From Spirulinaceae cyanobacterium SM2_1_0 (GTDB taxonomy: Bacteria; Cyanobacteriota; Cyanobacteriia; Cyanobacteriales; Spirulinaceae), in NCBI GenBank assembly GCA_012031265.1, contig JAAUTY010000003.1, positions 1 to 64,000 of the forward strand: 64,000 nucleotides of DNA, given 5' to 3'. Positions 1,125 to 29,806 of this stretch are shown here, one piece after another. The notes beneath the pieces are model-generated. The model was given only the letters and a program-made list of their open reading frames with translations. It was not told where the DNA came from and did no database searches. Both the position numbers and the translations under genes were made by a program. How positions within the stretch are numbered: the first letter of the stretch is position 1; every line of letters starts with the position of its first letter.

Positions 1125-3230
1125 TTAGGACGCGACCACGTAGCGATTGCGTCCCTGCTCCTTGGCAGCATAGAGCGCTTGGTCGGCCGCGTCAATGAGC
1201 GCTTGGGGCGATCGCGCTGATGCAGAGATCACGCTGGCAATGCCGATACTGACCGTCACCACGGCCGCAACCTCAGAATGCCGATGGGGAATCCGGAGGG
1301 CGGCGATTTCGGCTTGAATACGAGTCGCAATCTTGATTGCCCCCGCATCATCGCTGTAGGGGAGCAAGGCAACAAACTCCTCACCGCCATACCGAGCCAG
1401 CAAATCGGTAGCCCGCCAGATTGCACACCGGCCCGCCTGAGCAATTTTGCGTAAACATTCATCCCCGGCGGGATGTCCGTAGTAGTCGTTATAAAGCTTG
1501 AAATAATCGACATCAAACAGCAGGATTGCTAGGTAAGTTTGCTCGCGTTGTAAACGCGGCCATTCTTGTTGCAAAGTTTCATCAAACTTGCGGCGATTGG
1601 CGAGCTGGGTCAAGCCATCGGTGGTCGCCAGTTTTTCCAGTTGCTGGTTGACGATTTGTAGCTCAGCTTCGAGCCGCTTGCGATCGCTAATATTGCGCGC
1701 CACCCAGATCGCTTGGTTCGCACCAAACGGTGAAATACGGGCTTCAAACCAAGCAGGCTCGGCATCAGTTGCGGTCGGCGGCAATTGATACTCGAGATCC
1801 AACGTTGCTCCCGATTGGATAACCCGGGCAACAGTACTGCGGAAGGTCTGACCGCAATCGCGCCAGAAGCAACTGGTTGTGCGTTCTAGCCAATCATAGT
1901 GTTGTTCGGCCGCCTGGGTCGGGATGATTTTGATGTTTGCGGAGTCGCGATCGCTCGTCAATACAAAATCAGTCATAGCCGCAAACAAACCGCGCATTTC
2001 GGCTCCGTTCGACTGTAGTTTTTGTTCGAGGATCTTGCGATCACTAATATCCACATGACAACCAACCATCCGGATCGGTTCACCGGCATCGCCCCACTCA
2101 ATCACCTGTCCCGAGCAAATCACCCAGACCGTTGAACCATCTTTGTGGCGGTAGCGCACTTCGTTGTAGTAACAAATTCTACCCCGACTCTGAATATGTT
2201 GCTCAAAACAAGCAAATACTTTAGCTAAATCCTCCGGAAAAACCAGGCGCTGCCACGTGTCGGGATGATTTTCCAGTTCCCAATCTTCGTAGCCGAGCAT
2301 CCGCTTCAGGCCTGGACTGAGGTACTCCTGATTGTCGGCAATTCGCCAGTCCCAGTAGCCCGCCAGCACATTGTCCAAAATCAGTTCAAGGACTTTAAGC
2401 TCCTGCTGAATTTGTTGGGTGCGTTGGCGTTCAGTTTCAACTTGTTTGCGAGCAGTAAGATCGGTCACCGTCCCTACATAGCCAGTCGTTTGCCCCGCCG
2501 CATCACGAATCGCGACCGACTGCCCGTAGACCCAAGTAGTATGGCCATCCGCATCTTGGAGACGATATTCGAGTTGAAAAGGGCGGCTCTCCCTGGTAGA
2601 GGCATACCATTCGGCAGCAATTCGCTCACGATCCTCGGGATGCAAACCCTGTTGCCAGCCATCACCAGCCGCAGTTTCAGGAGTAAAACCCGCGAGCTGG
2701 CAGGAAAGCTCATTGACATAGAGACACTGACCCTGAGCATCCGCCCGAAAAATACCGACCGGTACCGCTGCCACAAGACCAGCATAGTATTGCTCACTTT
2801 CTGATAGCTTGCTTTCGACTTTCTTGCGCTCTTCGATCTCTTGCTTAAGTTCACGGTTGAGCACCGCTAATTTTTCTGGGCTTGGTAAAATCAGCGCTTG
2901 GGGCAGGATTGCGATGAGCTGAATAGCCGTGTAAAGTGACACGATTGCAGTCACGGCCTTCATCAAGCCCTCGAACCAGTAGTCAGGATGCCACAGTGTC
3001 CAAATCGATAGCAGATGGGTGGTGCCACAGAAAACAATGAAGGCTCCGAATAAAACGAAAATCCCATCAAAAGGAATATCCCGTCGCTTCTGGACAAAAT
3101 AGAGCAGTATCAGGGCGATGAAATAATAAGCGACGGTCGTCAGAGCATCCGAAATCAGATGCAAGTTCACAAGACTGGGCTGCCAGAGATAGCAGTGCCC
3201 GTGAGGGATAAAGGCTGATCCGCCAGGCAT
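1125..3230 (-). CDS. Ethylene-receptor-type sensor with PAS domains and GGDEF diguanylate cyclase
   Basis: About 701 residues. The first ~120 residues carry three membrane helices with the ethylene-binding signature of plant ETR1 and cyanobacterial Etr1: an Asp in helix 1, then exactly 40 residues later the Cys of FCGTTHLL, with His four further on (Cys and His bind Cu(I) in ETR1). A coiled coil (NRELKQEIEERKK) leads to two clear PAS/PAC units (about residues 150-265 and 285-405), a third weaker PAS-like unit (about 420-525), and a C-terminal GGDEF domain with GGEEF and an upstream RATD inhibitory site. It should make cyclic di-GMP in response to a membrane-sensed ligand. The ATG at 3230 is used; an in-frame TTG at 3248 would add six residues. 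Neither has a strong Shine-Dalgarno. Confidence 0.9.
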   Translation of the reverse strand: MPGGSAFIPHGHCYLWQPSLVNLHLISDALTTVAYYFIALILLYFVQKRRDIPFDGIFVLFGAFIVFCGTTHLLSIWTLWHPDYWFEGLMKAVTAIVSLYTAIQLIAILPQALILPSPEKLAVLNRELKQEIEERKKVESKLSESEQYYAGLVAAVPVGIFRADAQGQCLYVNELSCQLAGFTPETAAGDGWQQGLHPEDRERIAAEWYASTRESRPFQLEYRLQDADGHTTWVYGQSVAIRDAAGQTTGYVGTVTDLTARKQVETERQRTQQIQQELKVLELILDNVLAGYWDWRIADNQEYLSPGLKRMLGYEDWELENHPDTWQRLVFPEDLAKVFACFEQHIQSRGRICYYNEVRYRHKDGSTVWVICSGQVIEWGDAGEPIRMVGCHVDISDRKILEQKLQSNGAEMRGLFAAMTDFVLTSDRDSANIKIIPTQAAEQHYDWLERTTSCFWRDCGQTFRSTVARVIQSGATLDLEYQLPPTATDAEPAWFEARISPFGANQAIWVARNISDRKRLEAELQIVNQQLEKLATTDGLTQLANRRKFDETLQQEWPRLQREQTYLAILLFDVDYFKLYNDYYGHPAGDECLRKIAQAGRCAIWRATDLLARYGGEEFVALLPYSDDAGAIKIATRIQAEIAALRIPHRHSEVAAVVTVSIGIASVISASARSPQALIDAADQALYAAKEQGRNRYVVAS

Positions 3231-3430
3231 GAGAAGTTTTGAGTACAATGGCTTGGGCTGGAACTGTCAATGCTGCAAACACCCTAAAGCAACCGCGACG
3301 TGGAATGTTACGCTTTCGAGTTTAATTTCTCAAAATTGAGCTGCTTCTAGCATGAATTGTAGCTCGTATGACGGAGACAGGCGCTGACTCGTTGACAATC
3401 CGGGATACTCCCTATGGCTCGATAGCAAGG

Positions 3431-3468
3431 CTAAAAAAAATGCCAACCCGTCGATCGACGGGTTGGCA
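3431..3468 (-). terminator. Perfect palindrome with U-tract
   Basis: A 28-base perfect palindrome (arms TGCCAACCCGTCGA, 3441-3468, no fixed loop) is flanked at 3433-3440 by eight A on the plus strand, which is a T-tract on the minus strand. It is oriented to end minus-strand transcription and lies about 230 bases beyond the peroxiredoxin stop codon, so the peroxiredoxin transcript may carry a long tail or a small gene. Confidence 0.75.
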
Positions 3469-3698: not shown

Positions 3699-4271
3699 CT
3701 AGCCCACAAACGCCTTACGCGGCTCAGAAACGCCAGGAGCCTCAGCGCCTTTTAGGTATGCCAGCATCGTGTCAGCATCAGAGACCTCGAAGGGATCGGT
3801 CGGGCAGTTATCGGCGAAGTCCGGCTCGGCGAAGATCTTTTCGATCGTGCCGGCATTGACGAACATCGAGTAGCGCCAAGAGCGCATCCCGAAGCCGAGG
3901 TTGTTTTTCTCGACCAGCATCCCCATCTTGCGGGTGAATTCACCATTACCGTCCGGCAGCAAGAAGACATTCTCCGCGCCCTGTTGCTTGCCCCACTGGA
4001 ACATCACGAAAGCATCGTTCACTGAGACACAGACAATCGAGTCTACGCCCTGAGCCTTGAATTCGTTGTAGAGTTCTTCGTAGCGCGGCAGGTGATTGGA
4101 TGAGCAGGTCGGCGTGAATGCACCGGGCAGCGAAAAGACGACGACTTTTTTGCCACCAAAGATGTCCTGAGTAGTGAGATCTTGCCAACGGAAGGGGTTA
4201 GAACCGCCGACGGACTCGTCGCGCACGCGGGTCTTGAATACGACATCCGGTACTTTGGTCGGAACTGCCAT
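3699..4271 (-). CDS. Type II (Prx5-like) peroxiredoxin
   Basis: A 190-residue atypical peroxiredoxin. The peroxidatic cysteine motif is seen in [19 protein letters not shown], followed by the FVMFQW and [15 protein letters not shown] segments typical of the glutathione/glutaredoxin-dependent type II family; a conserved Arg is present in [10 protein letters not shown]. It reduces hydrogen peroxide and alkyl hydroperoxides in the cytosol. It is divergent from the perR-type gene at 4473, the arrangement known from Synechocystis slr1738/sll1621, so peroxide-responsive control is likely. The ATG at 4271 is preceded by AGGAGA eight bases upstream. Confidence 0.92.
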
Positions 4272-4472: not shown

Positions 4473-4886
4473 ATGCAACCACAGGCTGAGGCTGTTGTTC
4501 AGCGCCTCAAATCCAAACAATTGCGAGTCACCCCCCAGCGGTTTGCGGTCTACGCCAATTTGTTGGCGCGTACCGATCATCCCACCGCTGAGCAAATTTT
4601 GAGTGACCTGAACCGGAGTGCGCCGACTTCCTCGCAGGCGACCGTTTACAGCGCCCTGCAAGCTCTCCGCAATGTTGGTCTGGCGCGCGAGGTTTTGTTG
4701 GAGGAAGGGGTGTCGCGATACGATGCCAATGTTGAACCGCACCACCACTTCTGCTGTCAGCGCTGCGGCGCGATCGCCGACATCGCTTGGGATACCTTCA
4801 GTCGCATTGACTTGGACAATCTGCCCGCTGGTCTACAGGGCAAAAGCTATGAAGTGACGGTGCGGGGTCTGTGCGATCGCTGCTAG
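4473..4886 (+). CDS. perR: Fur-family peroxide regulator, PerR type
   Basis: A 137-residue Fur-family repressor. The winged-helix part contains RVTPQRFAVY and SQATVYSALQAL, the DNA-recognition region; the metal part has HHHFCCQRCG and ends in CDRC, giving the two CxxC pairs of the structural zinc site. Its length and its divergent peroxiredoxin neighbour point to PerR (H2O2 sensing by Fe-catalysed histidine oxidation) rather than Fur or Zur. The start is the ATG at 4473. The assignment as PerR rests mainly on context and could be tested by promoter binding. Confidence 0.85.
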   Translation: MQPQAEAVVQRLKSKQLRVTPQRFAVYANLLARTDHPTAEQILSDLNRSAPTSSQATVYSALQALRNVGLAREVLLEEGVSRYDANVEPHHHFCCQRCGAIADIAWDTFSRIDLDNLPAGLQGKSYEVTVRGLCDRC

Positions 4887-28055: not shown

Positions 28056-29453
<1,398 letters not shown>

Positions 29454-29461
29454 TCAAAAAA

Positions 29462-29545
29462 ACAGCTTCCCTCCGCTGGTGCTAACCAGTCTCAGGTTCT
29501 AAGGGTATTTCTCAGCCCAATGCTGACATCGGGCACCCCTAGCTT
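29462..29545 (-). promoter_or_regulatory. TPP riboswitch (THI element) of thiC
   Basis: On the minus strand the leader contains the conserved strings in order: GGGGTGCC, GCTGAGA, ATACCC, GAACCTGA, then the TGGTTAGCACCAGCG stem and GGGAAGC. These match the thiamine pyrophosphate aptamer. Seven T follow the aptamer, then the Shine-Dalgarno GAGGAC and the ATG, so control may be at translation or by early termination. Confidence 0.95.
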
Positions 29546-29806
29546 GGTATAGATGGTAACGCTATTTAGGCGAAGACACTTGTAAAGAGTTGCAAAGTCT
29601 GATGAAGTATTGCGAATGATCTGATTCTTGCAAAAATGGTGACTTATCGGCGCTAAAAAAAGAGCAGGCTAATGCTCGCTTTCGCCTAATCAAGCTTGCA
29701 ATTTTGCAGCCTAAATCGTAAGGATAAATGTGGCAGCGGCCATTTTTGGCTTCCGGTAAACTTCTCAAGCATTTTCTAATACTTCTAATGCTATTGACTT
29801 ATAGCG
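29546..29806. other. Spacer upstream of thiC leader
   Basis: AT-rich spacer of about 260 bases presumed to hold the thiC promoter. No gene, terminator or repeat was recognised here. Confidence 0.5.

Follow-up and report, generated by a model that had tools for sequence, protein, structure and literature searches.

Introduction

Bacterial proteins with an N-terminal ethylene-binding-type domain (EBD) like that of the plant receptor ETR1 have a wide range of putative outputs, according to the available part of PMC7700396, whose Figure 2D gives bacterial EBD architectures. The bacterial ethylene receptors characterised in the portions of the literature examined are histidine kinases. The cyanobacterial Etr1 proteins (Synechocystis SynEtr1/UirS, Slr1212; Geitlerinema GeiEtr1 and GeiEtr2) have an N-terminal three-helix EBD with copper ligands and a single N-terminal Cys, followed in GeiEtr2 and SynEtr1 by PAS-type domains, and all three end in histidine kinases (PMC6682694, available part). 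AzoEtr1 from Azospirillum brasilense has an EBD-PAS front and a histidine kinase output; its ethylene binding has been measured, and ethylene signalling through it modulates biofilm formation in this bacterium. The seven ETR1 residues required for ethylene binding were identified by alanine scanning (both from the available part of PMC11819568), and P36 is counted among the essential residues (PMC6586836, excerpt).

Here we describe a protein encoded in the window, the whole 64,000-nucleotide stretch of DNA that was analysed, from Spirulinaceae cyanobacterium SM2_1_0. The source assembly (5.03 Mb, 149 contigs) is the sole member of its genus among the genomes compared. The protein shares the EBD, the copper ligands, the single N-terminal Cys and the PAS domains with the Etr1 proteins, but it ends in a GGDEF domain where SynEtr1, GeiEtr1 and GeiEtr2 end in histidine kinases, and it lacks the proline, whereas GeiEtr1 and GeiEtr2 keep all seven residues (PMC6682694). 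It is of a known kind, that of bacterial EBD proteins with varied outputs (PMC7700396), and as a variant, in which a proline-less EBD sits on a cyclase, it has no description in the parts of the literature examined.

Domain organization of the protein

The gene (1125..3248, minus strand) is an open reading frame for 707 residues when started at the TTG at 3248, or for 701 when started at the ATG at 3230, which we think is the likelier start. It encodes an ETR1_N-PAS-PAS-(PAS)-GGDEF protein, in which Pfam recognised ETR1_N, two clear PAS domains and a complete GGDEF domain; chance is excluded as the source of these matches. Neither HisKA nor HATPase gave a Pfam match at E up to 1, and a GGDEF domain takes the place of a histidine kinase-like output.

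The GGDEF domain spans residues 541-702 (1143..1628, minus strand; PF00990, E 3.9e-51) and scores 173.4 bits against a curated cut-off of 23.8. A motif scan located the RATD I-site and the GGEEF active-site motif at residues 612-625 (1374..1415, minus strand), as RATD-LLARY-GGEEF (RATDLLARYGGEEF) with RATD at 612-615 and GGEEF at 621-625, so that both the GG(D/E)EF and the RxxD patterns are present. The output is therefore as the preliminary description had read it: GGEEF with an intact RxxD site, and no histidine kinase. The same two motifs are found in WspR and other GGDEF diguanylate cyclases, whose sensor part is unrelated, and the best PDB match is a GCN4-WspR fusion, to the GGDEF part. 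Judged by its motifs the diguanylate cyclase is apparently competent, and dimerisation and catalysis would be expected of it. It is one cyclase among many of its genome, in which 37 GGDEF matches were counted, some being pieces of one protein.

Between the two ends lie a PAS domain at residues 150-273 (2430..2801, minus strand; TIGR00229 at 150-273, PAS_4 at 161-269) and another at residues 309-403 (2040..2324, minus strand; PAS_3 at 309-397, PAS_9 at 309-403), with the Pfam PAS matches to these two falling within residues 155-403. A third PAS domain is only likely. When residues 405-545 were searched alone, PAS_4 matched at about residues 452-525 (1674..1895, minus strand) with E 2.7e-4 and 21.6 bits, under the curated cut-off of 23.1.

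The ETR1-type domain and its putative copper site

The N-terminal residues 20-125 (2874..3191, minus strand) form the ethylene-binding-type domain. The domain search that had been proposed as a check on the preliminary description matched these residues to the ethylene-receptor family, as Pfam places PF25487 (ETR1_N) at residues 26-119 with E 1.1e-38 and 131.8 bits against a cut-off of 27. Hydropathy analysis revealed three N-terminal hydrophobic stretches (29-54, 56-85 and 94-123), and the GGDEF domain contains a fourth (657-679). The three stretches, and the three long helices that AlphaFold2 (43 alignment rows, pLDDT 87.4) models for residues 7-135, support a three-helix membrane domain, with a predicted membrane topology, where the preliminary description had placed a three-helix region. 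A Foldseek search of the PDB with the EBD fold found nothing at an E value of 0.001 or lower. The corresponding PDB sequence search returned a light-harvesting peptide as its sole match (E 0.39), which we take as chance.

For residue numbering a profile was built with hmmbuild from 14 EBDs, the protein's own included, and the Arabidopsis ETR1 letters, assumed to be correct, served as the ruler in the alignment. On this footing the alignment of ETR1 with the EBD is gap-free through helices 1 and 2, and D34, Y41, I44, I71, C74 and H78 stand opposite ETR1 D25, Y32, I35, I62, C65 and H69. Six of the seven ETR1 residues needed for ethylene binding are thus kept. Asp34 (3147..3149, minus strand), the Asp of helix 1, corresponds to D25, and Cys74 (3027..3029, minus strand) and His78 (3015..3017, minus strand) correspond to the copper ligands C65 and H69, with an Asp-to-Cys spacing of 40, as in ETR1. 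The Asp, Cys and His of the copper site, and the spacing, had been pointed out from the letters alone, and the alignment places the Cys/His pair in the ETR1 copper position; a pair lying elsewhere would have spoken against the reading. Copper binding by this EBD is predicted from these three residues only. The N-terminus also has the motif GHCYLW at residues 17-22.

Loss of the proline required for ethylene binding

At the seventh position the protein has Ala45 (GCC, 3116-3114; 3114..3116, minus strand) where the profile alignment places ETR1 Pro36, a change known from one assembly. The full seven-residue set is consequently not present, and by the ETR1 definition the ethylene site is incomplete. 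This does not support the intact ethylene site that the preliminary description had implied, and since one of the site-defining residues is missing, the protein was not classed as an ethylene receptor. The original alanine scan of ETR1 is said to be that of Wang 2006. In tomato, Never-ripe is presumably the same change as P36L. P36L is also among the ethylene-receptor mutations studied in squash (PMC8012379, available part).

To see how unusual Ala45 is, we surveyed 200 EBD rows from 198 of 200 loci. The first part comprised 80 named loci, the best 80 of 508 confirmed matches and biased to close EBDs; the second, 40 ETR1_N matches of the family, own genome included; and the third, 80 stretches, made up of roughly every second phylum match listed (76) and four high rows of a protein search. 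Two loci (L179, L180) are weak matches below the family's cut-off and gave no EBD row at E 0.001. No two rows are identical, and because the second row from L231 is a truncated copy of the L250 gene the rows represent 199 distinct genes. Of the 200 rows, 170 have the complete set of seven residues, and 180 have D, C and H. Among these 180 the proline is absent from ten, the protein described here included: Ala replaces it in this protein, L249 and L261, and Ser in L043, L161, L244, L251, L262, L265 and L267. Leaving our protein aside, 170 of 179 rows with D, C and H keep the proline. At the 36 columns that are at least 90% conserved among these 179 rows, Ala45 is the only departure, which argues that the rest of the EBD is still constrained; at the 29 columns conserved to at least 95% there are no departures, as in 133 of the 179.

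These results bear on whether the protein functions as an ethylene receptor that signals through cyclic di-GMP; copper held by C74 and H78 would then bind ethylene despite Ala45, and ethylene would change the cyclase activity. Speaking for this are six of the seven required residues, among them D, C and H, which are in register, and the 53.6% identity of the EBD to EBDs in Azospirillum brasilense records, AzoEtr1 of strain Sp7 being an ethylene binder (PMC11819568, in part). Proteins without the proline may still bind ethylene, and the alanine result comes from the plant receptor. Biofilm formation and phototaxis are traits often governed by cyclic di-GMP. In Synechocystis both are affected by ethylene (PMC11819568, PMC5812497, available parts). 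However, the residue replaced is one counted essential in ETR1, and the proline is kept in the Azospirillum EBD (L274), in the five other EBD-GGDEF proteins described below and in 79 of the 80 named relatives (best 80 of 508). Ethylene control of the protein is possible but without sequence support, and we consider it somewhat unlikely.

Given the Ala in place of Pro36, ethylene is a less likely input than an altered ligand, the copper state, the redox state or the PAS domains. The reading that we hold to be the more probable, from the domains and motifs, is that of a sensor diguanylate cyclase anchored in the membrane, with an ETR1-type front and a copper-type site, whose input is likelier something other than ethylene. 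The three-helix domain would probably still hold Cu(I) via Cys74 and His78 near Asp34, a conformational signal would pass from the EBD through the linker and PAS domains to the GGDEF dimer, and this dimer would make cyclic di-GMP, with feedback by the product through the RxxD site. As a natural variant at the Pro36 position the protein can serve to probe it, and it warns that D, C and H alone are insufficient to call an ethylene site.

Other ETR1-type domains in the genome and family

The source genome has three ETR1_N matches, this one included. At the seven positions the other two proteins read ACLATWQ and DFIPSLC; neither has the Cys or the His at its place, and in one the Asp is missing as well. 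With Ala45 in the present protein, no EBD of the assembly has the full seven. By comparison, one or more EBDs with the full set occur in 10 of the family's 12 other genomes, and the two that have none are 81-82% complete, one having an EBD cut by a contig end. The loss of the ligands in the two other proteins, and of the proline here, would fit an EBD that has lost its ligand and is a mere membrane anchor and dimer-maker, with the PAS domains and product feedback setting the activity in a genome whose other EBDs have decayed. Free decay would hardly leave D, C and H in place, though, and a single departure at the 36 columns at least 90% conserved; we find this explanation improbable.

A more far-reaching proposal starts from the fact that this is the genome's only ETR1-type domain with copper ligands, and that its output is a diguanylate cyclase. 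Either ethylene or a different small molecule bound to Cu(I) might then act directly on cyclic di-GMP, without a phosphorelay, the loss of Pro36 (10 of 180 rows) marking an altered ligand choice. We put this forward tentatively and regard it, as a whole, as unlikely.

We searched for full-length orthologs, running from the EBD through the GGDEF domain, with an E limit of 1e-60 and two candidates scored per genome, and found none among the matches listed for the order's 387 other genomes; an ortholog may have been overlooked, although one would be expected near the top of the list. Among the 37 ETR1_N matches of the 12 other family genomes, two of them weak matches that gave no EBD row, a GGDEF domain occurs only in L166, a bare EBD-GGDEF protein. 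The family also has a second ETR1_N-like group (L172-L178 and L180, with L175 from the source genome itself), kinase-like by motifs only, which is without the Cys and mostly without the His, and most of its members have a PCN motif after helix 1.

Related fusions and the origin of the gene

A phmmer search with the GGDEF domain of the protein found a GGDEF domain in six of the 200 EBD rows: the protein itself, L046, L101, L110, L166 and L246, the five others being confirmed by Pfam. Fusions of an EBD to GGDEF are rare without being unique (five among the 199 other rows), and the preliminary description had allowed that related PAS-GGDEF fusions may already exist in databases. All five have ETR1_N and GGDEF in one frame, as here, but they keep the seven residues and their GGDEF domains are only 35-37% identical to ours. 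Two are GGDEF-EAL fusions (L046, from an Aphanothece MAG, and L110, from Nostoc sp. WHI), L101 (uncultured Coleofasciculus) is EBD-PAS-GGDEF, and L246 (genome G123) is EBD-PAS-GAF-GGDEF and reads GGEEI. L166 (genome G386, same family) is with 301 aa the smallest fusion seen and has no RxxD at the usual place; it is probably the easiest EBD-GGDEF fusion to assay. With such fusions, what an EBD senses could be tested directly in a single protein. In the accessible parts of the literature on such fusions we found no description of an EBD-GGDEF protein, and an earlier report is possible.

The preliminary description had taken known cyanobacterial Etr1 proteins to be histidine kinases. This applies to the Etr1 proteins of Synechocystis and Geitlerinema, but not to bacterial EBD proteins at large, whose outputs vary (PMC7700396, in part): apart from the five GGDEF fusions and the histidine kinases, the survey contains chemoreceptor and class III nucleotide cyclase outputs. 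The cyclase, L165:2161-4914 (genome G388), combines ETR1_N, GAF and PAS with a class III nucleotide cyclase domain (PF00211, E 1.6e-66) and has Cys and His in place (LCGLEHL); by its sequence it is a possible EBD-cAMP/cGMP receptor. Four EBD proteins, L156 (by Pfam) and L157, L097 and L112 (by phmmer, E 3e-76 or better), end in a methyl-accepting chemotaxis signalling domain.

Where the parts of the gene came from is suggested by their separate relatives. Residues 11-430 are 50% identical to a 1333-aa frame (L270), the best among the matches listed, which Pfam resolves as EBD-PAS-HisKA-HATPase-receiver, a hybrid kinase. For the GGDEF end a relative is a 926-aa frame of genome G391 (62% identity), and the contig carrying that frame has no ETR1_N among the matches listed. 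The gene thus looks like a module swap, in which the EBD-PAS-PAS front of a hybrid-histidine-kinase type would have been joined to the GGDEF tail of EBD-less proteins. The GGDEF domain of L101 is 64% identical to that of L046 and 62% to that of L110, as compared to the 35-37% between ours and the five. On an EBD tree (96 columns) GGDEF needs 6 changes, against 5.9 on average with shuffled labels, and the starred branches force only 2. The best tree of the same 96 columns with the six EBD-GGDEF proteins held together outscores the free quick tree, and a test of one clade does not reject it (p-AU 0.798). The argument for a separate origin of this fusion is hence left to the GGDEF identities.

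A few further observations were made on the distribution of EBD genes. Beyond the cyanobacteria, the analysis of EBDs covered plasmid records; nineteen such records had an EBD match, and in the six scanned for motifs only (two Rhodovastum, one Azospirillum and three cyanobacteria) no GGDEF motif was seen in the EBD frame. Genomes G099, G129, G203 and G336 each have, among the matches listed, two EBD genes about 1.7 kb apart, one in a short frame (515-527 aa) and one in a long frame (1030-1247 aa). L076, on a contig filed as an Akkermansia muciniphila MAG, has an EBD gene 57% identical to ours; the contig is probably misbinned and cyanobacterial.

Genomic context

Upstream of the gene, on the same strand, lies a peroxiredoxin-type gene (3699-4271), and beyond it a divergent FUR-family regulator (4473-4886). 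Farther upstream are uroporphyrinogen decarboxylase, an epimerase-type gene and, encoded on the minus strand, 3-dehydroquinate synthase, and the convergent downstream neighbour encodes a DUF2808 protein. Seven neighbours were scanned, the seventh being a histidine phosphatase, and no cyclic di-GMP receiver or phosphodiesterase was among them. The two adjoining genes recall a copper or redox sensor, in which the Cys/His site would report Cu(I) or peroxide, not ethylene, and so set cyclic di-GMP. The retained ligands and the lost proline are in line with this, and oxidation of the N-terminal cysteines of ETR1 has been suggested to carry peroxide signals (PMC3546692, available part). Between the gene and the peroxiredoxin gene, however, there is an intrinsic-terminator-like hairpin with 12 pairs and a T8 tail (3441..3468, minus strand; a consensus match only), and proximity alone is weak evidence; we regard such a sensor as doubtful.

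Owing to the hairpin the gene is probably on a separate transcript, and an operon with the peroxiredoxin gene is unlikely. The scan gave five terminator-like sites, where shuffled sequence has a mean of 3.1, and three promoter-like sites, where it has 2.0, by which a promoter-like site near 3333-3305 means little. Elsewhere in the window, a TPP riboswitch (29451-29550, minus strand; 63.2 bits) lies directly upstream of ORF 29447-28056, which is presumably a thiamine gene.
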